NCBI GenBank assembly: GCA_913057795.1 | Contig: CAJXOD010000012.1 | Location: 1-36,700, forward strand | DNA length: 36,700 bases | Direction: 5' to 3' | From: an uncultured Aquiluna sp. | Lineage (GTDB): Bacteria; Actinomycetota; Actinomycetes; Actinomycetales; Microbacteriaceae | Shown here: positions 7,247 to 25,112 of the stretch, one piece after another | Position numbering within the stretch: position 1 is the first letter of the stretch | Layout: the number at the start of each line of letters is the position of its first letter | Translations under genes and position numbers: made by a program | Notes under the pieces: generated by a model | Seen by the model: only the letters and a program-made list of their open reading frames with translations | What the model was told of the DNA's origin: nothing | Database searches by the model: none

Positions 7247-7573
7247 GGTGACCTTCTAGTTGATTGGGTTTTATCTTGGCACAAGACTTCGCCAGAGTCA
7301 CAACCTCGCAAGGGAGGGTGGAATTATTAATTATTTAATATCTTTAATAATCACTAATAACCTGCTGTGTAAAAGTGGATAAGTCCCTGTCGGGCTCTTG
7401 TTAATTGAGAACTACATCGTTGTAAGTTGTACACAGTTCTGTGGATAAGCCTGTGGATAAGTCATCTAGTTGTGGATTGTTTTAGATTTGTGAACAAATT
7501 GAAGTGATTTATAGGGGAAAGTACTCGACTTCTCCACATTATTTTCGGAGTTATCCACAGGCTTCTTTTAAAA
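7247..7573. other. oriC: Chromosomal origin oriC (dnaA-dnaN intergenic region)
   Basis: This 327-nt gap between dnaA and dnaN has all the marks of oriC. Perfect DnaA boxes (TTATCCACA or its complement) are at 7440-7448 (minus), 7452-7460 (minus) and 7551-7559 (plus). One-mismatch boxes are at 7366-7374 (TGTGTAAAA), 7374-7382 (AGTGGATAA), 7427-7435 (TTGTACACA) and 7530-7538 (TTCTCCACA). A stretch at about 7319-7360 is almost all A and T and is the likely unwinding element, on the dnaN side of the boxes. An inverted repeat ATTTGT-GA-ACAAAT sits at 7486-7499. The role follows from gene context and box content. Confidence 0.93.
7319..7360. other. AT-rich DNA unwinding element of oriC
   Basis: About 40 nt consist almost only of A and T, with TTAATTATTTAATATC and TAATAATC-type runs. 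It borders a short CCTGC patch and then the DnaA boxes at 7366 and 7374. Reading toward the boxes, TAATAA triplets sit next to the CC patch. This order resembles the DnaA-trio arrangement known from Bacillus (AT triplets, GC patch, box). The match is suggestive only. Confidence 0.6.
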
Positions 7574-8990: not shown

Positions 8991-9053
8991 TTATGCACAG
9001 ATTTTTGCACAGATAGTTGGACCTGTGTATAAACCCTCAATGCCTGTGGAAAA
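8991..9053. promoter_or_regulatory. DnaA-box group upstream of dnaA
   Basis: Four DnaA-box-like 9-mers lie within 63 nt directly upstream of the dnaA start. TTATGCACA at 8991-8999 and TGTGTATAA (complement TTATACACA) at 9024-9032 fit the TTATNCACA consensus. TTTTGCACA at 9003-9011 and TGTGGAAAA at 9045-9053 are weaker. Boxes in the dnaA promoter are the known basis of DnaA autoregulation, so this region may let DnaA limit its own transcription and may also extend the origin on the far side of dnaA. Confidence 0.75.
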
Positions 9054-13185: not shown

Positions 13186-14108
13186 CAACTAGTAAACGCC
13201 CAGAGCGCCGTGGTGGCCTCGGCAGAGGCATCGGTTCTTTGATTCCAGAGGGCGACCGAAATGCGGTGGATGTCTTCTTCGGTTCTGACAGCACGCAACC
13301 AATAGGTGTTGAAGTTGCGCCAGGGGCCAGACTAGCCCAGCTAGATCTAGACCAGATAACACCTAACCCTCAACAACCAAGAACAGTTTTCGAATCCGAG
13401 GCCTTTGCTGAGTTGGTTCATTCAATCCGTGAGTTCGGTGTCTTGCAACCAATCGTCGTGCGGCCGCTGGGCGCAGGATATGAACTCATTATGGGAGAGC
13501 GAAGGCTACGAGCATCCAAGGAGGCCGGGCTTTCATCTATCCCAGCTGTGGTTCGCGAAACGGCTGATGAAAACATGCTTCGCGACGCGCTTCTTGAGAA
13601 CATTCACCGCGCAAACCTAAACCCTCTGGAAGAAGCCTCTGCCTACAAGCAGATGCTCGAGGATTTTGGAACCACTCAGGATCAGTTAGCTGACAAGCTT
13701 GGCCGTTCCAGGCCGCAAATCACGAATACGTTGCGATTACTGAAACTGCCCATGGATGTTCAGGACAAGGTGGCCGCCGGCGTCCTTAGTGCCGGACACG
13801 CCAGGGCTTTGCTGTCAACCAACGATGAGAACACGATGCGTGAGCTAGCCAGCCGAGTGATTCGCGAAGGTATTTCGGTTCGAGGACTTGAAGAGATAGT
13901 TTCCGGTGCAAAGTCCAAGCCGGGCAAGGCCACAATTAGGCCGGGCGGCAAGCAGGACATGCTCAAGGAACTCGCCGAGGAATTGGGTGACCACTTGAAC
14001 ACAGTGGTCAAGATAAGCATTGGCCGCAAAAAAGGTCAAATGGTTATTGAGTTTGGGAACCTAGTGGATTTGAGACGCATAATCCAGGACATCAAGGGTA
14101 AAAACTAG
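13182..14108 (+). CDS. parB: Chromosome-partitioning protein ParB (Spo0J)
   Basis: ParB is the CTP-dependent DNA clamp that loads at parS and spreads along the chromosome. It has 308 residues. The N-terminal CTPase domain carries NPQQPRTVF, LQPIVVRPLG, the GERRLRA motif and ENIHRANLNPLEEA. The helix-turn-helix for parS is TQDQLADKLGRSRPQITNT. A C-terminal dimer domain (about 240-308) follows a basic linker. The ATG overlaps the parA stop. Its stop TAG is read on the other strand as the stop of the ligase gene, through the palindrome CTAG at 14105-14108. Confidence 0.96.
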   Translation: MTTSKRPERRGGLGRGIGSLIPEGDRNAVDVFFGSDSTQPIGVEVAPGARLAQLDLDQITPNPQQPRTVFESEAFAELVHSIREFGVLQPIVVRPLGAGYELIMGERRLRASKEAGLSSIPAVVRETADENMLRDALLENIHRANLNPLEEASAYKQMLEDFGTTQDQLADKLGRSRPQITNTLRLLKLPMDVQDKVAAGVLSAGHARALLSTNDENTMRELASRVIREGISVRGLEEIVSGAKSKPGKATIRPGGKQDMLKELAEELGDHLNTVVKISIGRKKGQMVIEFGNLVDLRRIIQDIKGKN

Positions 14109-15049
14109 CTTTTTTGGGCTAGCTTCACAAGCGCTAGGTAGGTCTCGGGCAAGCTCGCTTCGGTCGCCAATACCGCCTGCGGGAAAAGCGAAGTCTCTGT
14201 CATTCCGGGTGTCACGTTCGCCTCCAGGAACCAGATTTCCCCGGACTCATCGACGATCAGGTCCACTCGGCTTAGTTGGGTGAGACCCAAGCTAGTGTGA
14301 ACCGCTATGGCAATGCGGGCAGCTTCGATCAGAATCTCATCATCCAGCCGAGCCGGAACGTAATAGTTCGTTTGACCGGGTGTGTAGCGCTCGTTGTAGC
14401 CAAACTCACCGGAGTCGGGGACTATCTCAACCGCAGGAAGGGCTAATGGCCCATCCCCTAAGTCAATAACGCTAACTGCTAGCTCGGTGCCGACGACAAA
14501 ACGCTCAATCATCACTTGATCGCAGTATGCAAAAGCATCGACCATTGCCTTTGCAAAGCTTTTTGGCTCGGAAACTTTCGCGCAACCTTGCGCTGAGCCA
14601 CCTTTAGCTGGCTTTACCAAAAGGGGGAAACCCAGTTCAGTCCCAACCATCGCCAGCACCGACTCTGCATTCAGTTCCCGAAAGCTCGATTTAGGAAGTG
14701 CGATGGATTCAGGTGTTCTAATACCCTGCCTTGCGACTAGCACCTTTGCCACTGGCTTATCCCAGGCTAGACGAGCACCTGCGGAACCGGACCCGACAAA
14801 TGCGATTCCGGCCAGCTGCAATAGGTTTTGCAAGGAACCATCCTCGCCAACGGCGCCGTGGAGGGTGGACCAAACCACATCTGGCCTAGTTGCCATTAGG
14901 TGACCCACCAGCTCGCCGTCTGGTTCGCGAATTTCGGTTGAGACCCCAGCGTCGGTCAGTGCGTCGGCAACTCTTCGACCTGATTTGAGGGAAACATCAC
15001 GCTCGTGAGAGATTCCGCCGGCTAAAACCAGCACTCGAAGATCGCTCAC
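14105..15049 (-). CDS. ddl: D-alanine--D-alanine ligase
   Basis: This is an ATP-grasp ligase that joins two D-alanines for the peptidoglycan stem peptide. The protein has 314 residues. It shows HERDVSLKSG (N-terminal Glu of the catalytic triad), LHGAVGEDGSLQ, VKPAKGGSAQG with the conserved Ser, the omega-loop GYNERY whose last Tyr fits D-Ala rather than D-lactate use, SRVDLIVDE and EANVTPGMTETSLFP. The key Glu, Ser, Tyr, Arg and Asn are thus present. The GSAQG loop differs from the usual GSSVG. The start is GTG 15049, overlapping the aminotransferase stop by one base (TAGTG), so the two genes are probably one transcription unit. Confidence 0.9.
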   Translation of the reverse strand: MSDLRVLVLAGGISHERDVSLKSGRRVADALTDAGVSTEIREPDGELVGHLMATRPDVVWSTLHGAVGEDGSLQNLLQLAGIAFVGSGSAGARLAWDKPVAKVLVARQGIRTPESIALPKSSFRELNAESVLAMVGTELGFPLLVKPAKGGSAQGCAKVSEPKSFAKAMVDAFAYCDQVMIERFVVGTELAVSVIDLGDGPLALPAVEIVPDSGEFGYNERYTPGQTNYYVPARLDDEILIEAARIAIAVHTSLGLTQLSRVDLIVDESGEIWFLEANVTPGMTETSLFPQAVLATEASLPETYLALVKLAQKS

Positions 15050-16308
15050 TAGTCCTTCTTCCCAAAGGTCTCTAGAAGGTCTATTTGTTGGTTCAGAACT
15101 CTGGAAAGTCTCTCAATGCCTACGCGAACGTTGTCCGCTGTCGGGTGGGAGAAACAAATTCTGATGTTGTCCGCTCCTCGGCCATCTCCAAAGAAGGCGG
15201 TTCCAGGCGTATACGCCACCAGCTCAGTGACGGCCAGCGGCAGCATTTCCTTACTGTTTAGCCCTTCGGGGAGCGTGAGCCAAAGGAAGAAGCCCCCATC
15301 GGGCCTGGTCGTGTGGACCTTTGGTAAAAACTGCTCGACAGCCTGCAGAGCGGCGTCGCGCTTGGTTTGATACAAGTCTCTAAAAGTCGCGATCTGTTTT
15401 TGCCAGTCGGCAATGCTTAGGTATTCGCTAACGAGCATTTGGGCGAAGCTGGCGGGGGACAAAATTGCCGATTCGTTGGCGAGCACCAGTTTTTCCCTGA
15501 TTGCCGGTGGGGCAAGCACGTAGCCGACTCGTAGGCCCGGGGACAATATCTTAGAAAAACTTCCCAGGTAAACCACGTTCTGCTCATCGAGTGATCTCAT
15601 CGCGTTCGGCGGCTTGTCGCCGAAGTAAAGCTGTCCGTAAGGGTTGTCCTCGATGATCAGAATGCCACGTTGCTTGCAAATTTCTAGAACTTCGAGCCTG
15701 CGATCGGCAGTGAGGGTCACGCCACTGGGATTTGCGAAGTTCGGCACTAAATACAGCAGCTTTATGCGCTTGCCTTCGGCAATCAGTCGATCGGCCGTCT
15801 CTGCCAGCGCCTGAGGCGAAATACCGTGCTCATCCGTGTAAACGTGAGCAATGTGAGCCTCTTTGTGACGGAAAATTCCTACGGCACCTACGTAACTCGG
15901 GGCTTCAACCAAGACAACATCGCCCTTGTCCAAAAACAAGTCCGAAACTAGTTCTAAGCCGTGCTGAGATCCAGTGGTGATTGTGATGTCCTCAACCGAG
16001 CTGTGGATCCCCTCAAGGGCCATGATCTCTTGGATCTGCTCCCGCAGCCGCAAGTCTCCTTGACCGCCACCATACTGAAGGGCCAAGTCCTTGCGGCTAG
16101 ACATGAGCGACGCAAAAGCTTTTTCAATTAGTTCAGTGTCAAGAGCGGCAACATCCGGCATCCCGCCGGCTAGCGAGACCACTTCTGGCCTAGACACGAC
16201 TGCGAATAGAGCTCTAACCTCGGAAACTGACAAATTCTCGGCTCGAGCGGCGTAGGCATGCTTCCAAGAATCAAAGTTGGTTACTCCGTCAGCACGCGTC
16301 TTAGTCAT
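15049..16308 (-). CDS. PLP-dependent class I/II aminotransferase
   Basis: This is a fold-type I pyridoxal-phosphate aminotransferase of the 2-aminoadipate/aromatic (LysN/MocR-catalytic-domain) group, 419 residues. NPSG is at about 193-196, EDNPYG at 220-225 with Asp221 for the PLP ring nitrogen, and the Schiff-base Lys253 lies in YLGSFSKILSPGLRVGY. There is no N-terminal helix-turn-helix, so it is an enzyme rather than a MocR regulator. Its substrate cannot be assigned. The overlap with ddl hints at amino-acid supply for the cell wall, but this is only contextual. The start is ATG 16308. Confidence 0.88.
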   Translation of the reverse strand: MTKTRADGVTNFDSWKHAYAARAENLSVSEVRALFAVVSRPEVVSLAGGMPDVAALDTELIEKAFASLMSSRKDLALQYGGGQGDLRLREQIQEIMALEGIHSSVEDITITTGSQHGLELVSDLFLDKGDVVLVEAPSYVGAVGIFRHKEAHIAHVYTDEHGISPQALAETADRLIAEGKRIKLLYLVPNFANPSGVTLTADRRLEVLEICKQRGILIIEDNPYGQLYFGDKPPNAMRSLDEQNVVYLGSFSKILSPGLRVGYVLAPPAIREKLVLANESAILSPASFAQMLVSEYLSIADWQKQIATFRDLYQTKRDAALQAVEQFLPKVHTTRPDGGFFLWLTLPEGLNSKEMLPLAVTELVAYTPGTAFFGDGRGADNIRICFSHPTADNVRVGIERLSRVLNQQIDLLETFGKKD

Positions 16309-16361
16309 TTGAACTCCATGGGTAGGTTCTAAAAAAGTCTAGTTCCCTATTTGCCAAGTGA

Positions 16362-16385
16362 CTAGCTAACTAGCTAACTAGCTAG
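16362..16385. repeat. Three tandem copies of an 8-bp CTAGCTAA-type unit
   Basis: CTAGCTAA, CTAGCTAA and CTAGCTAG follow one another directly and cover the trxA stop codon at 16378-16380. Read on the minus strand the repeat puts stop codons in all three frames just after trxA. It may be simple slippage, and no further copies were noticed in the window. Confidence 0.8.
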
Positions 16386-16707
16386 CTGGAAGGAGGTCGC
16401 GGATTTCATCCATGATTGCAGCCTTTGGTCTTGCGCCAACCAATTGCTTTACCAACTTGCCACCCTGGAAAATGCCCAGAAGCGGGATCGAGGTGACGCT
16501 GTAGTCCATTGCGAGCTGCTGCTCGAGGTCAACGTTCACCTTTACGATTTTGATGCTGTCGGCATTCTCACTTGCTATTTCATCTAGAACCGGGGCAACC
16601 ATGCGGCATGGTCCACACCACTCAGCCCAGAAATCAACGATTACTAGCTTGTCTGCGTGCAGAACTTCTTGGTCAAAAGATGCTTTTGTTGCTTCAACTG
16701 GTTGCAT
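16378..16707 (-). CDS. trxA: Thioredoxin
   Basis: This is a small cytoplasmic dithiol oxidoreductase that reduces protein disulfides and is recycled by thioredoxin reductase. It has 109 residues, the standard length, with the active site WCGPC at residues 30-34 inside VDFWAEWCGPCRMVAP, and the cis-proline region VTSIPLLGIFQ. The ATG at 16707 is 10 nt after the trxB stop and is preceded by AAGGAGAGAG, so the pair trxB-trxA is an operon. Confidence 0.96.
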   Translation of the reverse strand: MQPVEATKASFDQEVLHADKLVIVDFWAEWCGPCRMVAPVLDEIASENADSIKIVKVNVDLEQQLAMDYSVTSIPLLGIFQGGKLVKQLVGARPKAAIMDEIRDLLPAS

Positions 16708-16717
16708 TTCTCTCTCC

Positions 16718-17638
16718 TTATTTCGAACTTAGATAGTGCTCGGCGTCGAGGGCTGCAACGCAGCCTGATCCAGCCGCAGTGATTGCTTGCCGGTAAATCG
16801 GGTCAATCACGTCGCCAGCCGCAAATACTCCCGGCAGGCTTGTCTTTGAGGTTCGGCCATCTACTTTTATGAAACGATCTTTGGAAATCTCCACTTGATT
16901 TTCGATCAAGCCAACCCTCGGGTCGCTTCCGATGGCAACGAACAAGCCTTCAATGGCTAGGTCCCGCTTTTCACCGGTTACGGTGTCTTCCAATACAACG
17001 CCATCTAGCTTCGGCGAGCCCTTCAACTCGGTGATGGCCGAGTTCCAGATGAATTCAATTTTCTCATTGTCAAAAGACCGCTTCTGCATGATTTCTGACG
17101 CCTTCAAGCTGTCCCTGCGGTGGATGACATAAACCTTGGATGCAAACTTGGTTAGGAAGTTAGCCTCTTCCATGGCAGAGTCACCACCACCGACGACGGC
17201 AATCACTTTTTCACGGAAGAAGAACCCGTCGCAGGTTGCACACCAAGAAACCCCGTGTCCACTTAGCTCTTGTTCTCGAGGAACACCAATTTCACGATAG
17301 GCGGCCCCCATCGACAAAATAACGCTTTTGGCTTCGTAGGTTTCACCGTTTCCGGTCTTTACTATCTTGATGTCACCGGTTAGATCCACCTCTGTGACAT
17401 CTTCGAACAAAATCTCGGTGCCGAAGCGCTCTGCCTGCTCTTGGAAGCTAGCCATTAGATCCGGACCCATAAGGCCGTTTGGGAAACCCGGGTAGTTTTC
17501 TACGTCGGTGGTTTTCATCAGCTCGCCGCCTGGCTCAACGCTCGAGGCGATCATCAGCGGATTCAGGGCGGCCCTTGCAGCGTAGATGGCTGCTGTGTAA
17601 CCGGCAGGACCGGAACCGATGATTATTACTTCTCTCAT
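16718..17638 (-). CDS. trxB: Thioredoxin reductase (NADPH)
   Basis: This flavoenzyme transfers electrons from NADPH to thioredoxin. It has 306 residues. The FAD-binding GSGPAGYTAA is at about 8-17, the redox pair is CATC at 133-136, the NADPH motif is VVGGGDSAMEEA near 155, and the second FAD motif is FAAGDVIDPIYRQAITAAG near the C-terminus. The length is typical of low-molecular-weight TrxB. Start ATG 17638. A promoter is visible upstream at 17665-17692. Confidence 0.96.
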   Translation of the reverse strand: MREVIIIGSGPAGYTAAIYAARAALNPLMIASSVEPGGELMKTTDVENYPGFPNGLMGPDLMASFQEQAERFGTEILFEDVTEVDLTGDIKIVKTGNGETYEAKSVILSMGAAYREIGVPREQELSGHGVSWCATCDGFFFREKVIAVVGGGDSAMEEANFLTKFASKVYVIHRRDSLKASEIMQKRSFDNEKIEFIWNSAITELKGSPKLDGVVLEDTVTGEKRDLAIEGLFVAIGSDPRVGLIENQVEISKDRFIKVDGRTSKTSLPGVFAAGDVIDPIYRQAITAAGSGCVAALDAEHYLSSK

Positions 17639-17664
17639 GATGCTCTTTTCTGGTTATTGCGTAA

Positions 17665-17692
17665 AACATAGACAGTCATCTATTTATTCCAA
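17665..17692 (-). promoter_or_regulatory. Likely promoter of trxB-trxA
   Basis: Reading the minus strand, a -35 TTGGAA (17692-17687), a 16-nt spacer and a -10 TATGTT (17670-17665) lie in the 69-nt gap between murJ and trxB. The start point would be near 17658, giving a leader of about 20 nt. Confidence 0.5.
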
Positions 17693-17707
17693 CACTAGAT
17701 TAGCGAA

Positions 17708-19357
17708 CTACTTTGAATTTTTGCCAAATCTAACGGTCAATTGTTTCGAAACCTCTCTGAGCTCCGGAACCCTGAACAACCAGAGCAATCCTAAGTAGGT
17801 AAACAGCATGGCGAACCCAACCAATAACCCGCTCGCTACCGCCGTTACCGCCCGGTCTACCGGGTAGCTCCCCTCGCCAATGCCACCCAGCCAATTCAAA
17901 ACTAGAACTCCGATCATGGCAGCCGGAATCATGGCCAAGAAAAATGTGATCAGCGATTTGCCAACGCCAAAGCCTTCTAGGCCGCCGATTCGGGCTTTCA
18001 GTGCCAAGTAGGCAATGATTCCCTGAATCGATACCGAGAAAGCAGTCAATAAAGCAATTGACACCACGAGCCACTGCTTGTCCATTGTTGCGCCAAGAAT
18101 CAGTGAGCCGGTGATATGGATCGCAATCTGGATGCTTGTAAAGAAAAACGGTGTTTTGGTGTCCTCAAGTGCAAAGAAAGCTCTTTGCATCATGTAGACG
18201 AAGCTAAACGGTACTAGGCCGATCATGAATGCCGCGACCACATTGCCAAGCGCAGCAGTCGCCGGGTACTCTCCGGCGAAAACTCGAGCAATCGGATAGC
18301 TCAGGACTATCAAGATCGCTGTTGAGATCATGCTCACGAGTGCGATTACCTTGAGCCCGGTGGTCATGTCAATCTTGAATTTAGCCATGTCGTTACTTGC
18401 AGCGTGCTGGCTCATTCTCGTGAAGTAGGCGGTGGCCACCGACACTGTGACTACCGAGTGTGGAAGCATAAAAATTAGCCATGCAATCGCGGCCGCGGCC
18501 ACCGATGCCACCACAACCCCGTTGTCTCTGGCGCTTGCCGCAGTGGAGGAAACCGCAGTTTGAACCACGCCACCGATTTGTGTCACAAAAACCATCGCGA
18601 GCGACCAGCTCGCGGTCTTTAGCGCCGGACCTAAGCCGAAGCCACGCCAACCGAAATTCAGCTTCAACTTCAAGCCGATTCTGCGCCAGCTTGCCAAAAG
18701 AATCATCGACTGCGCCGCCACACCCAAAGTTGCGGTCCCGGCCAACAGCGCTATCTGGTCGGCGCCCCAGTCCGCGACGCCTCTTGCCCCGGTAGGGTCT
18801 GCTCCAAAAATGGCTATGAATGCCGCCAGGCCGCCTAGTGAAACCAAGTTGTTTAGAACCGGCGCCCACATGTAAGGACCAAAGGCGCTTCTGGAGTTCA
18901 GAACCTCGCCAAAAACCGAATAGATTCCGTAGAAAAATAGCTGGGGCAGGCACCAGTAAGCAAAGGCGGTCGCCAGCGCCAGCTGTTGTTCGGTCCAACC
19001 GGCCGTATAGAGCCGAACTAGGAACGGAGCCGCGATGGTAAAAATAAGTCCGACGACAAAAAACACGGTGATGGCCAGCGTGACAAAGCGGTCGATGTAA
19101 CCTTTGCCGCCGTCTTTGGCGGCGCGCGCTCGAACCAACTGCGGGACTAACACGGCATTCAAAACGCCACCAACGATTATTGCGTAGACGCTATTTGGCA
19201 GCTGATTGGCGACACCGAAAGCATCAGCTGCGTCGGTAGTCACACCGATTGTGGCCGCCAGTAAGACCGCGCGCGCAAAACCTAGTAGCCGGGACACAAT
19301 TGTTCCGCTTGCCATGATCAGCGAACTGCGGGTCACTGAGGGGTTGATATCACTCAC
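17708..19357 (-). CDS. murJ: Lipid II flippase MurJ (MviN family)
   Basis: MurJ moves the peptidoglycan precursor lipid II across the membrane. The protein has 549 residues with about 14 hydrophobic helices. It begins with the family signature SGTIVSRLLGFARAVLLAAT, followed by DAFGVANQLPNSVYAIIVGG, which holds the conserved polar residues of the first helices. A central MLPHSVVTVSVATAYFTRMS fits MurJ helix 8. The C-terminal kinase-like regions found in some mycobacterial MviN proteins are absent. The start is GTG 19357, overlapping by 8 nt the stop of the short membrane gene before it. It belongs to the Nudix-DUF6049-murJ set common to actinobacteria. Confidence 0.93.
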   Translation of the reverse strand: MSDINPSVTRSSLIMASGTIVSRLLGFARAVLLAATIGVTTDAADAFGVANQLPNSVYAIIVGGVLNAVLVPQLVRARAAKDGGKGYIDRFVTLAITVFFVVGLIFTIAAPFLVRLYTAGWTEQQLALATAFAYWCLPQLFFYGIYSVFGEVLNSRSAFGPYMWAPVLNNLVSLGGLAAFIAIFGADPTGARGVADWGADQIALLAGTATLGVAAQSMILLASWRRIGLKLKLNFGWRGFGLGPALKTASWSLAMVFVTQIGGVVQTAVSSTAASARDNGVVVASVAAAAIAWLIFMLPHSVVTVSVATAYFTRMSQHAASNDMAKFKIDMTTGLKVIALVSMISTAILIVLSYPIARVFAGEYPATAALGNVVAAFMIGLVPFSFVYMMQRAFFALEDTKTPFFFTSIQIAIHITGSLILGATMDKQWLVVSIALLTAFSVSIQGIIAYLALKARIGGLEGFGVGKSLITFFLAMIPAAMIGVLVLNWLGGIGEGSYPVDRAVTAVASGLLVGFAMLFTYLGLLWLFRVPELREVSKQLTVRFGKNSK

Positions 19358-19817
19358 CGGGCTGCCTTCGAAGCTTCGAGGTGGTTCGGATCACACCAAT
19401 AACAATCAGTGCAAACATCGCCACACCAAAGCTAACCAGCAAAAACAGCTCAATGTCGTAATTTACGATCACTTCTACAATCACTGTGTCGCCGATTTGG
19501 TTACCCTCAATGCTCAGCCACACCGAAATTTCGAGAGGCCCATTGGCAATTGCCTTGATTGGAAGTTCGGCAACGGCGCTTGACCTTGCCGGGACGATGA
19601 GCGTGGCGCTCTCAATTATTTCTAGGCGAAAGCTGTTGCTTGCCGCCATAACCGTGACTTCCATGTCTTGGTCGGTGGGGTTCGTGACTGTTACTGGTAT
19701 GCGGGCATCCCTCGCCACAACGTTTATGTTGCTGCCTGGGACAATGCTCGGCTCAGCCGCGATGGCGGCGTTTGGAATGAGCAAAAGCGCTAGCACCAGA
19801 AGCCACGCCCGTCTCAC
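19350..19817 (-). CDS. Short DUF6049-like secreted/membrane protein
   Basis: This is a 155-residue protein from GTG 19817. A signal peptide (RRAWLLVLALLLIPNAAIAAE) is followed by one beta-rich domain (about 30-115, with ARIPVTVTNPTDQDMEVTV and AELPIKAIANGPLEISVWL), then a transmembrane helix (about 122-145) and a basic tail. In other actinobacteria the gene at this place encodes a DUF6049 protein of several hundred residues whose last part looks like this. Here the large N-terminal part is missing and the signal peptide joins the C-terminal domain directly. The start overlaps the Nudix stop by 4 nt (GTGA), which favours it over longer starts up to 19901. Function unknown, probably envelope related. 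Confidence 0.75.
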   Translation of the reverse strand: MRRAWLLVLALLLIPNAAIAAEPSIVPGSNINVVARDARIPVTVTNPTDQDMEVTVMAASNSFRLEIIESATLIVPARSSAVAELPIKAIANGPLEISVWLSIEGNQIGDTVIVEVIVNYDIELFLLVSFGVAMFALIVIGVIRTTSKLRRQPGE

Positions 19818-20260
19818 TGAATCAGCCTCTGAGCCTTCTCCGCGATGCGCTTTTCCGTGGCGTGAGCCAAAACATCTCCAACCTCGCTGAGGTCGAACCA
19901 CCGAACATCAACCACTTCACCGGTCGGGTCATTAGTGGCAGAAAGTTCGCCCCCTGTGTGTCTAAGCAAATAGTGATGAACTGTTTTTTTAATTCTTTTT
20001 TTACCGACCGTAAACCCGTACTGAATTTCGCCAATTTTAGAGACCACTTCGCAGGCTAAGCCGGTTTCTTCCTCAACCTCGCGCTTAGCGGTTTGCTCTA
20101 GAGCCTCGCCGGGTTCAACGTGACCCTTTGGGATTACCCAGTCCATGCCACCACCGCGATTCCGGTGGCTAATCAGTGCAACTTCGTTTGGGTTTGTGGC
20201 GCTAATAACTAAACCTCCCGCGGAGACTTCCGTGACAGTTCTATTACTCGGGGCACTCAT
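19814..20260 (-). CDS. Nudix hydrolase
   Basis: This is a 148-residue Nudix-family pyrophosphohydrolase. The Nudix box GHVEPGEALEQTAKREVEEE (then TGL) fits GX5EX7REUXEEXGU with all the metal-binding glutamates. The substrate is not evident. Nearby family members act on diadenosine polyphosphates or oxidised nucleotides. It starts at ATG 20260 only 39 nt from the divergent CCA-adding gene and overlaps the DUF6049-like gene downstream. The pairing with that gene, murJ and the CCA enzyme is a conserved actinobacterial arrangement. Confidence 0.9.
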   Translation of the reverse strand: MSAPSNRTVTEVSAGGLVISATNPNEVALISHRNRGGGMDWVIPKGHVEPGEALEQTAKREVEEETGLACEVVSKIGEIQYGFTVGKKRIKKTVHHYLLRHTGGELSATNDPTGEVVDVRWFDLSEVGDVLAHATEKRIAEKAQRLIQ

Positions 20261-22231: not shown

Positions 22232-22722
22232 TGGCAGGCGAAGTAGTCATAACGATCGTTGGCAACCTAGCTGACGATCCGGAACTTCGCTACACGCAGG
22301 CCGGAATCGCCGTGGCCTCAGTCCGCGTCGGCTCAACTCCGAGAACCTTTAACCGTGCGACAAATGAGTTTGTTGACGGCGAAACCGTTTGGATTCGCTG
22401 CACCGCTTGGCGCGAGGTTGGCGAGAATGTTGCTCAGACGCTCACCAAAGGGGCACGAGTTGTGGTTACCGGTCGAATGAAGCCGGCTTCTGCTTACCAA
22501 ACGGCCCAGGGCGAAGCCAGGGCTTCACTTGAGTTAGAGATAGACGAAATTGGACCATCACTTCGCTATGCAACAGCAACTGTTACAAAGCGCGCCCGTG
22601 AAGGCTCTGCTCAGGTTGAATCCCCATGGGGTGGAGCTCAGGCAGAAAAGAAGCAGGCTAATTCTGGAGCGGATGCATGGGCTAACCCAGCAGAAGCCCC
22701 ATCCGACGAAGCACCTTTTTAG
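22231..22722 (+). CDS. ssb: Single-stranded DNA-binding protein
   Basis: SSB coats single-stranded DNA at forks and recruits partners through its C-terminal tip. The 163-residue protein has an OB fold at about 1-110 (ITIVGNLADDPELRYTQAG, WIRCTAWREVGENVAQTL and RVVVTGRMK). A low-complexity linker follows, and it ends SDEAPF. That end is a slightly diverged form of the usual acidic DD(I/P)PF tip but keeps the essential Pro-Phe. The ATG overlaps the rpsF stop by one base. Confidence 0.95.
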   Translation: MAGEVVITIVGNLADDPELRYTQAGIAVASVRVGSTPRTFNRATNEFVDGETVWIRCTAWREVGENVAQTLTKGARVVVTGRMKPASAYQTAQGEARASLELEIDEIGPSLRYATATVTKRAREGSAQVESPWGGAQAEKKQANSGADAWANPAEAPSDEAPF

Positions 22723-22743
22723 AAAAGACCTAGGAGAAAAACA

Positions 22744-22998
22744 ATGGCAGGAAAGTCAGCTGACCGCCGCAAGCAGATGAACAGTAAGTTCGACAAGCTT
22801 GCTCCGGCAAAAACAATCAAGATCGAATTCATCGATTACAAGGACGTCGCAACATTGCGCAAGTTCGTAACCGAACGAGGCAAGATTCGTGCTCGTCGCA
22901 TCACTGGTGCGACTCCGCAGGACCAGCGCAAAATTGCTAAGGCCATCAAGAACGCTCGCGAGATGGCGATAATGCCATACTCCGGTGCTGGACGCTAG
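22744..22998 (+). CDS. rpsR: 30S ribosomal protein S18
   Basis: S18 is the partner of S6 in the small subunit. It has 84 residues with the family core [20 protein letters not shown], then [20 protein letters not shown], and ends PYSGAGR. There are no cysteines, so this is the zinc-free type used as the normal copy in actinobacteria. GGAGA lies 7 nt before the ATG. It sits between ssb and rplI as usual. Confidence 0.97.
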
Positions 22999-23009
22999 AG
23001 GAGATTCAC

Positions 23010-23462
23010 ATGTCGAAATTAATTTTGACCAACGAGGTCCAAGGTCTCGGCTCTGCCGGTGACATTGTTGAGGTTAAGAACGGTTACGCACGTAACTTCT
23101 TGATCCCAACAGGACTGGCAGTTGTCTGGAGCCGCGGTGGCGAGAAGCAGGTCACCCAGATCCGCGACGCCCGCGACGCCCGCGCCATCGCATCTGAAGA
23201 AGAGGCATTGGAGATCAAGAGCAAGCTCGAGGGTGCTCTAATCACGATCAATTCAAAGGCCGGCACCAACGGCCGTTTGTTCGGTGCAATCAAGACTTCC
23301 GACCTGGCTGAAGCCATTCAGGCTCTTGGTTTCGGTGAGGTTGACAAGCGCAAGATCCAGTTTGCATCTTCAATCCGTACCGTTGGTAACTACGAGGCAA
23401 GCGTTCGTTTGAACTCTGACCTTGTAGCACGGGTAAAGCTTCAGGTTGTCGCTGCCAACTAG
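23010..23462 (+). CDS. rplI: 50S ribosomal protein L9
   Basis: L9 is an elongated protein of the large subunit near the L1 stalk. It has 150 residues. The N-terminal RNA-binding part is [20 protein letters not shown] followed by [17 protein letters not shown], a long connecting helix spans about 42-75, and the C-terminal domain includes [17 protein letters not shown]. The ATG has GAGGAGA upstream and begins 11 nt after rpsR stops. A strong terminator follows at 23477-23514. Confidence 0.97.
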
Positions 23463-23476
23463 CACAATTTTGTGAA

Positions 23477-23514
23477 GGACAACCCACACTTTTTTGTGTG
23501 GGTTGTCCTCTTTT
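23477..23514 (+). terminator. Rho-independent terminator after rplI
   Basis: A perfect 13-bp stem GGACAACCCACAC / GTGTGGGTTGTCC (23477-23489 and 23496-23508, loop TTTTTT) is followed by TCTTTT. It closes the rpsF-ssb-rpsR-rplI transcript and so isolates dnaB, which therefore needs its own promoter. Confidence 0.92.
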
Positions 23515-23524
23515 AAGTGGGGTG

Positions 23525-23700
23525 TTCTCCACAACCCTAAGCCTGAGCTTGAGGCTTTTCAGAGATTTATTTATCCACAGGTGAAACCCAGTAAAACACT
23601 GGGCAAAAGCCAGATGTCAATTTATTTATCCACAGGTTATCCACAGGCCGAGACTAAAATCATCGGCGTGTTTCCACAGGGTTATCCACAGTTATCCACA
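23525..23700 (+). promoter_or_regulatory. DnaA-box cluster upstream of dnaB
   Basis: Five exact TTATCCACA boxes, all on the plus strand, lie at 23571-23579, 23626-23634, 23637-23645, 23682-23690 and 23692-23700. Two pairs are spaced 10-11 nt start to start, one helical turn. Weaker copies are TTCTCCACA at 23525-23533 and GTTTCCACA at 23670-23678. An 18-bp direct repeat (23565-23582 and 23620-23637) contains two of the boxes, and a hairpin CCCAGT-AAAAC-ACTGGG sits at 23587-23603. The cluster ends 68 nt before the dnaB ATG. It could regulate dnaB through DnaA or bind and titrate DnaA. Confidence 0.85.
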
Positions 23701-23768
23701 GACTCATTTGTATGCAATGTGTCACTGCCCCAAGCTATACATGTCTTATCTAATTCTGGAGGAATACT

Positions 23769-25112
23769 ATGTCGATGTTGTCAACCGTTACAGCATCTGA
23801 CCCACGAGTAGCACCGCACAACCTGGAAGCAGAACAATCCACTCTCGGTGGCATGCTGCTGAGCCAAGAAGCTGTCGCGGAAGTTGTTGAAGAAATAGCC
23901 GGTGTTGATTTTTACGCGGGCAAACACGAGCTTATTTACAACGCAATCTTGAACTTGTTCGGACGCGGTGAGCCAACCGATGTAATCGCGGTTACCGATG
24001 AACTTAATAAGCAGGGAAACTTACTGAGAGCCGGAGGCTCCGACTATCTGCACTCCCTAGCCAGCTACGTGCCAACTGCTGCGAATGCCGGCTACTACGC
24101 GAAAATCGTTGGGGACAAGGCTATTTTGCGCAGACTCATCGATGCCGGAACCAGGATCGCTCAATCAGGGTATGACAGCCAAGGCGAGGTAGAGGATCTT
24201 GTGAACCAGGCCCAGGCAGAGGTCTATAAAGTTTCCAGCCAGTCTTCTAAAGAAGATTACGTGGGCTTGAGCGACTCCCTAGAGGCTGCAATCCACGATA
24301 TCGAGTTGGCGCAGAACCGTGGCGGGGAGATGACCGGAACCCCAACCGGCTTTACGGATCTCGACGCCTACACCCACGGACTACACGCAGGACAGCTAAT
24401 AATCGTCGCCGCACGGCCGGCGGTTGGTAAGTCGACCTTCGCGCTGGACATCGCGAGGAACGCGTCAGTTAGGCACAATCAAGCAACTATCTTTTTCTCT
24501 CTGGAAATGGGTCGTTCCGAGATCGCAATGCGTATGTTGAGCGCAGAAAGTTCGATTTATCTCCAAAGCATGCGAAAGGGAACAATCTCTGAGGGCGACT
24601 GGACCAGGCTCGCAGCCGTTCGCGGTCGAATCAATGACGCTCCGCTATATATCGACGACAGTCCAAACATGTCCCTGGTCGAAATTAGAGCCAAGTGCAG
24701 GCGTTTGGCTCAGCAGGTTGACCTGAAACTCGTGGTTATTGACTACATCCAGCTGATGTCCAGCGGCAAGAAGGTTGAATCTCGTCAGCAAGAAGTTTCC
24801 GAGTTTTCAAGGGCGCTGAAGCTCTTGGCTAAGGAGCTCGGCCTTCCAGTTGTTGCGCTTTCGCAGCTAAACCGTCAGGCAGAGCAGTCAAAGGATAAGC
24901 GCCCTGAACTTTCTCACCTTAGAGAATCGGGATCGCTGGAGCAGGATGCTGATGTTGTGGTGCTGCTGCATCGAGAGGGAATTTACGAGCGCGACCACCC
25001 CAGAGCCGGCGAAGCGGACCTGATCCTTGCCAAGCAGCGAAACGGACCGACCGGAACTGTCACGGTTGCTTTCCACGGGCAGTACTCACGCTTTGTAAAT
25101 ATGCCAAGCTAA
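23769..25112 (+). CDS. dnaB: Replicative DNA helicase DnaB
   Basis: DnaB is the hexameric helicase that unwinds the fork. The protein has 447 residues. The N-terminal domain begins PHNLEAEQSTLGGMLLSQEA. The RecA-like domain has TGFTDLDAYTHGLHAGQL, Walker A ARPAVGKSTFA, FSLEMGRSEIAMRML, Walker B LVVIDYIQLM and SQLNRQAEQSKDKRPELSHL. There is no intein, although actinobacterial DnaB genes often carry one. ATG 23769 follows GGAGG. Unlike most genes here it stands behind a terminator and a DnaA-box cluster, pointing to separate control. Confidence 0.97.
   Translation: MSMLSTVTASDPRVAPHNLEAEQSTLGGMLLSQEAVAEVVEEIAGVDFYAGKHELIYNAILNLFGRGEPTDVIAVTDELNKQGNLLRAGGSDYLHSLASYVPTAANAGYYAKIVGDKAILRRLIDAGTRIAQSGYDSQGEVEDLVNQAQAEVYKVSSQSSKEDYVGLSDSLEAAIHDIELAQNRGGEMTGTPTGFTDLDAYTHGLHAGQLIIVAARPAVGKSTFALDIARNASVRHNQATIFFSLEMGRSEIAMRMLSAESSIYLQSMRKGTISEGDWTRLAAVRGRINDAPLYIDDSPNMSLVEIRAKCRRLAQQVDLKLVVIDYIQLMSSGKKVESRQQEVSEFSRALKLLAKELGLPVVALSQLNRQAEQSKDKRPELSHLRESGSLEQDADVVVLLHREGIYERDHPRAGEADLILAKQRNGPTGTVTVAFHGQYSRFVNMPS

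Follow-up and report, generated by a model that had tools for sequence, protein, structure and literature searches.

A conserved, phased array of DnaA boxes lies upstream of the helicase gene dnaB in Aquiluna and is probably part of its control region

Introduction

Binding of DnaA upstream of dnaB has been described in mycobacteria. According to the accessible part of PMC7738170, five regions were strongly bound by Mycobacterium tuberculosis DnaA in vitro, one of them upstream of dnaB, and ChIP-seq in M. smegmatis found homologous regions. The same part of that paper reports that the mycobacterial DnaA mutant I282T binds less upstream of dnaB and under-expresses this gene, and it cites Caulobacter crescentus for a similar site, where DnaA is likewise found upstream of the helicase gene, in a different phylum. 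For M. tuberculosis a damage-related input to dnaB is also described: mitomycin C leads to overexpression of the gene in a partly PafBC-dependent manner, and it was still induced when RecA and PafBC were both down, for which a LexA box was suggested (available text of a study among PMC6789036, PMC8151990 and PMC10532879).

The locus described here resembles the mycobacterial site in phylum, in gene and in the expected upstream binding of DnaA, which in mycobacteria correlates with dnaB expression. Compared by description, not by sequence, the two differ in that the accessible part of PMC7738170 gives a binding region with no box geometry described there, whereas Aquiluna has five exact, phased boxes and a CGGCGT motif in one rplI–dnaB gap. 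A literature search that reached few subscription journals found no publication on DnaA boxes in Microbacteriaceae, and for a DnaA box at the dnaB promoter, or DnaA upstream of dnaB, it yielded only PMC7738170. Nor did it find a description of the phased geometry, of its conservation in Microbacteriaceae or of the nearby PafBC-like motif. A preliminary description of this DNA knew of no such element before dnaB in this group; that agrees with the search as far as Microbacteriaceae are concerned, but DnaA upstream of dnaB has been published for mycobacteria (PMC7738170, accessible part). The present analysis extends one mycobacterial binding peak to a geometrically defined, putative control element of the helicase gene that is widespread in the sampled Actinobacteria.

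Layout of the rplI–dnaB gap

The window (the whole stretch of 36,700 nt that was analysed, from an uncultured Aquiluna sp.) carries rplI at 23010-23462 and, after a gap of 306 nt, dnaB, the gene of the replicative DNA helicase, at 23769-25112 on the plus strand; the elements of the gap are given on the same strand. The gap opens with a hairpin resembling an intrinsic terminator, 3′ of rplI at 23476-23509, with a perfect 14-bp stem and a 6-nt loop, in agreement with the terminator that had been proposed to precede the cluster. It is followed by a distal weaker box, TTCTCCACA, at 23525-23533, and by five exact copies of the DnaA box TTATCCACA, at 23571-23579 (box 1), 23626-23634 (box 2), 23637-23645 (box 3), 23682-23690 (box 4) and 23692-23700 (box 5). 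Sequence matching thus reproduces the five boxes of the preliminary description, in a single orientation and all inside 23571-23700. Their spacings are 55, 11, 45 and 10 nt, so that the two pairs reported as 10-11 nt apart measure 11 and 10 nt. The second of the two weaker copies that had been noticed is GTTTCCACA at 23670-23678, read from the sequence, which has two mismatches and is kept in the genus alignment. A conserved CGGCGT motif (family form CGGCGTTTCgCgCA), seen in the unanchored genus alignment and in the family, occupies 23664-23669, with boxes 4 and 5 at +18 and +28 from it.

Between box 5 and the gene there are a –35-like TTGTAT (23708-23713), a PafBC-like promoter motif, TGTCAC-N10-TA-N3-A (23720-23741), the last base of which differs from the published T, and, inside the latter, a –10-like TATACA (23736-23741). 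A GGAGG read from the sequence at 23758-23762 is the probable ribosome-binding site of dnaB.

The window contains eight exact copies of TTATCCACA, where shuffles give a mean of 0.14. In the 1.33-Mb genome (46 contigs) there are 15, versus 3 for the reversed pattern. Five of these lie in the dnaB gap and three in the dnaA–dnaN gap (at 7440, 7452 and 7551, the number stated before); the other seven each fall inside a stop-to-stop open frame with 100 codons or more. In the window, about 14.5 kb separate the array from dnaA. A chance origin of the array was rejected on shuffle counts, both in the window and in the dnaB upstream regions of genus and family. We also considered a small protein gene, a 105-codon ORF (23494-23811) that overlaps the array, and rejected it: the frame, counted back from the dnaB start with indels ignored, is not conserved, since 19 of 20 genus gaps interrupt it by one or more stops and the window alone has none. 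The window was without an Rfam match to a known RNA element at gathering score.

Conservation within the genus and beyond

We searched 22 genomes of the genus Candidatus Aquiluna, 20 of which, our own included, have a full dnaB locus; the remaining two gave no dnaB match or merely a weak partial one. The array is kept in all 20 gaps, with 3 to 7 exact boxes each, all on the dnaB sense strand. In this comparison DnaB of one member (G002) is 99.8% identical, and rplI identity goes down to 66% with the array kept nonetheless. The pattern TTRTCCACA, within 450 nt upstream of dnaB, is found 92 times in sense and never in antisense, in 20/20 sequences, against a shuffle mean of 0.20. Exact boxes are more numerous at dnaB than in the dnaA–dnaN gap in 17 of the 18 genus genomes measured at both gaps, the exception being G018 with five at dnaB versus six. 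The preliminary description had named the lack of a box excess in the rplI–dnaB gap of close relatives among the observations that would speak against its idea; such an excess was found, in its favour.

The distal weaker box opens a module of its own (about 23525-23560) that is conserved in the genus, in which the box is followed by an AACC...AG...TTTAG.GTTTTC-like stretch that in some species looks like an AGGTTT repeat. Thirteen of the 20 genus gaps have an exact TTATCCACA near the place equivalent to 23525.

Outside the genus dense arrays are rarer. In other Microbacteriaceae (60 genomes of 59 genera, hand-picked from 95 non-Aquiluna genomes with a dnaB match and including G031, G039, G096 and G101, in which a close box pair was already known before picking) TTRTCCACA within 450 nt upstream of dnaB occurs 79 times in sense and 4 times in antisense, in 49/60 sequences, with a shuffle mean of 0.40. 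At least two copies are present in 24 of these 60 gaps and just one in 25, while the box is absent in 11. The corresponding values for further families within the order and class are 30 sense and 8 antisense copies in 30/60 sequences, with a shuffle mean of 0.10, in a sample hand-picked from genomes with a match (40 of 84 and 20 of 46), mostly with full-length matches, that passed over many intein-split dnaB genes and includes one locus (L124) whose upstream sequence is limited to about 200 nt. Pairs of exact boxes at a distance of 10 or 11 nt, anywhere in the genome, are confined to 12 of 199 family genomes.

A scan of named loci, limited to the best 80 of 562 and with one locus (L261) dropped for its short upstream sequence, found boxes in 10/10 Aquiluna loci (which overlap the genus set), 7/7 loci of other Microbacteriaceae, 15/23 of other Actinobacteria and 1/5 of Acidimicrobiia, with groups assigned from record titles and identity. 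In the same 80 best loci, boxes were found in 0/34 from other phyla. Judged from these sequences, the dnaB box element looks like an actinobacterial feature that is densest in Aquiluna and its neighbours. Ten loci (L062, L063, L218, L220, L222, L223, L224, L226, L234 and L244) have in addition one or two antisense copies of TTRTCCACA, about 280-340 nt upstream of dnaB, that face the main array.

Phasing of the boxes and the predicted promoter

Box positions were counted from an anchor, CGGCGT or CGGCG, that is present in 72 of 80 sequences (52 of them of the family) and lacking in 8; since this pattern was drawn up by visual inspection, its columns are conserved by construction. In the genus the boxes lie at about –138, –92, –48, –38, –27, –17, +18 and +28. 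Box-like sites of the family (n = 52) are most frequent at +28 (38 sequences), +16 (23), –16 (20) and –39 (18), with –27 and –29 as minor places (5 each). The places thus differ between genus and family, yet both sets keep a period of 11.0 bp. With this period, which was picked after the distances had been seen, and with identical patterns collapsed among relatives that are not independent, the mean cosine is 0.82 for the genus (16 distinct patterns) and 0.80 for the family (38 distinct patterns), and 0/300 null placements were as high in either set. A period of 10.5 bp gives –0.14 and 0.03, respectively. For order and class (10 patterns) the cosine is 0.59 at 11.0 bp (0/300) and 0.48 at 10.5 bp (3/300).

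Downstream of the array the consensus of both genus and family has TTG at +44, followed in the genus by TATACA at +72 and in the family by a weakly conserved TAgGGT-like –10 near +68. From this cross-species conservation we infer a dnaB promoter between the array and the gene, which lends support to the separate promoter that had been expected after the terminator. The distance between TTG and TATACA in the genus, 22 nt as taken from the consensus, is long for a sigma-70-type promoter, and a sigma-70 consensus scan of 22700-24000 returned no promoter between array and dnaB.

Conserved motifs between the boxes and after the array

DnaA boxes flank the motif CGGCGTTTCgCgCA (in Aquiluna CGGCGTGTTTCCACA) both in the window (23664-23678) and in the family loci L061-L119. 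The motif is invariant over CGGCGTGT when the 20 genus gaps are aligned without an anchor. When 100 family genomes were searched for CGGCGTTTCSCNCA, 51 places in 36 genomes were obtained, versus 14 for the reversed control; comparison of coordinates puts 25 of the 51 just upstream of dnaB, all in the dnaB sense. To our knowledge no regulator site matches CGGCGTTTCgCgCA. The CGGCGTTTC motif points to an additional factor, which may bind it inside the array.

The genus alignment downstream of the array keeps a TGTC...CCCAAGCTATACA block. In the accessible part of PMC8151990 the PafBC motif of M. tuberculosis is given as TGTCGG, TGTCAG or TGTCAC, 10 N, TA, 3 N and T. With the pattern TGTC(GG/AG/AC)-N10-TA, which was taken from that paper after the dnaB sequences had been seen, the 350 nt upstream of dnaB contain a sense match in 14/20 genus, 26/60 family and 21/60 order/class sequences, and antisense matches number 0, 0 and 1; the shuffle means are 0.22, 0.66 and 0.48. 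The sense PafBC core is therefore present at dnaB, in the window in its TGTCAC form. Addition of the final T leaves 0/20, 1/60 and 4/60, and in all 14 genus matches this T is replaced by A. Because the full TA-N3-T ending is absent from the genus, we call the element PafBC-like and not a member of the PafBC class. A stricter first pattern, TGTCRGTG-N8-TAnnnT, gave 0/20 genus, 0/60 family and 2/60 order/class matches and none in our own genome; reduced to TA alone (N7-9) it gave 5, 7 and 8, and TGTCRSTG-N8-TA occurs 7 times in our own genome versus 9 for the reversed control.

Where the genus has the motif, the last TTRTCCACA box precedes it by 19 nt (11 sequences) or 29 nt (3 sequences); the family sequences that carry both elements number 19, and there the distance is 14 to 163 nt. 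These 19 of 60 compare with 21 expected if boxes and motif were independent, and 9 of 60 in order and class compare with 9 expected; in the family the two are not associated beyond chance. Our own genome encodes a PafB/PafC-like pair (L288, contig C1, about 29.7-31.6 kb), consisting of overlapping WYL-domain genes of 317 and 321 aa, of which the second scores above the Pfam HTH_PafC cut-off. The locus thus has in common with the PafBC (RecA-NDp) promoters of mycobacteria a sense TGTC(GG/AG/AC)-N10-TA at dnaB and a PafB/PafC-like pair, and it departs from them in the final position of TA-N3-T, where all 14 genus matches have A.

Possible roles of the array

We consider it likely that dnaB is controlled from the rplI–dnaB gap and that DnaA on the phased array activates this gene. 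DnaA would bind the head-to-tail boxes at multiples of about 11 bp, with the molecules on one face of the DNA. The array ends just upstream of the predicted promoter, and there the bound DnaA would activate dnaB transcription, so that helicase supply would follow the active DnaA pool; some titration of DnaA is expected as a side effect. Through the PafBC-like element that lies between the array and the gene, dnaB may in addition respond to DNA damage. The region upstream of dnaB contains DnaA boxes beyond chance, as expected of a DnaA-controlled promoter of the mycobacterial type. DnaA control of helicase supply, one of the roles suggested earlier, gains support from the conserved array, its one orientation and its set position relative to the promoter-like sites. 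The sign of the effect would follow by analogy with one mutant correlation in mycobacteria, where less binding goes with less dnaB expression, which favours activation. The negative sigma-70 scan, the long distance from TTG to TATACA and the family gaps with no TTRTCCACA (11) or a single one (25) speak against this reading. If DnaA sets helicase supply, initiation readiness and elongation capacity would be coupled at the level of transcription. The exact boxes give targets to mutate.

A more elaborate scheme adds further inputs to this activation. In it dnaB would have a multi-input promoter: a phased DnaA enhancer, a factor at CGGCGTTTC and a PafBC damage input, acting via overlapping or adjacent core promoters. 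Its scope would be Aquiluna and, more loosely, Microbacteriaceae and other Actinomycetia. If true, one promoter would read both initiation readiness and fork damage. We regard the full scheme as tentative and on balance doubtful, since in the family boxes and motif occur together at chance level and the mycobacterial paper offers LexA as an alternative.

The same boxes could serve negative feedback, with DnaA repressing dnaB from the array and excess DnaA lowering the helicase level. In other bacteria DnaA represses its own promoter, and 7 nt separate the end of box 5 from the –35-like TTG downstream, a distance at which RNA polymerase could be hindered. Since the boxes precede the –35-like site and leave the core promoter uncovered, activation fits better than steric repression. 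Moreover, the I282T mutant, which binds less, under-expresses dnaB, the opposite of what derepression predicts (PMC7738170, accessible part). Repression is in our view unlikely.

Titration as the main role, in which the array would be a sink that draws off DnaA close to oriC and delays re-initiation while the control of dnaB is incidental, is less likely, and we give it a low probability. It is attractive in that five of the 15 exact boxes of the genome are here, about 14.5 kb from dnaA, and in that the dnaB gap exceeds the dnaA–dnaN gap in exact boxes in all but one of 18 genus genomes; the array has the dense high-affinity boxes near oriC that are expected of a titrating cluster. DnaA-box clusters of Bacillus subtilis and the D78 cluster of Streptomyces are titration sites and share with the array dense high-affinity DnaA boxes outside oriC, but the Aquiluna array is set against a promoter region; for D78 the literature search located no publication. 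A sink requires no phase, no single orientation and no preferred distance to a promoter, whereas all three are observed, and a single TTRTCCACA, as in 25 of the 60 family gaps, would make a poor fit to it.

That the array is an auxiliary replication origin appears very improbable. Besides the dense boxes, the cumulative GC-skew minimum within 100 kb is consistent with it in 2/4 genomes, where it lies near dnaB and not dnaA (–16 kb in G001 and –14 kb in G031), and the window has two cumulative minima, at about 7 kb and 21 kb. In G054, however, the minimum is at +16 kb, and in G009 it falls on the edge of the range (–98 kb); third-position skew gave no consistent strand signal in the window and four relatives, so that skew favours neither site. 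All boxes share one orientation, and the dnaA–dnaN gap is the more AT-rich in 18/18 genus genomes with both gaps measured, slightly so in some: the richest 50 nt have an AT fraction of 0.66-0.84 there (19 gaps) versus 0.62-0.72 in the dnaB gap (20 gaps), with overlapping ranges, and 0.82 versus 0.64 in the window. For the auxiliary origin that had been suggested no clear evidence was found, although the skew minima of G001 and G031 point in its direction.

In DARS elements three core boxes have a fixed orientation to one another, and the element promotes exchange of ADP-DnaA; datA acts in IHF-dependent hydrolysis of DnaA-ATP. The array, a non-coding DnaA-box cluster near the origin, had been likened in idea to such a DnaA-reactivating or DnaA-ATP-hydrolysing element. 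No clear evidence was found for this role, which is about as improbable as the origin, given that in relatives the array is tied to the dnaB promoter region and that the genus has direct repeats only.

Between dnaA and dnaB the window has a block of minus-strand ORFs (14105-20260), directed against the fork expected from dnaA–dnaN. Around the dnaA start, at 8991-9053, there are four degenerate DnaA-like boxes, TTATGCACA, TTTTGCACA, TTATACACA and TTTTCCACA, which are possibly a site of dnaA autoregulation.
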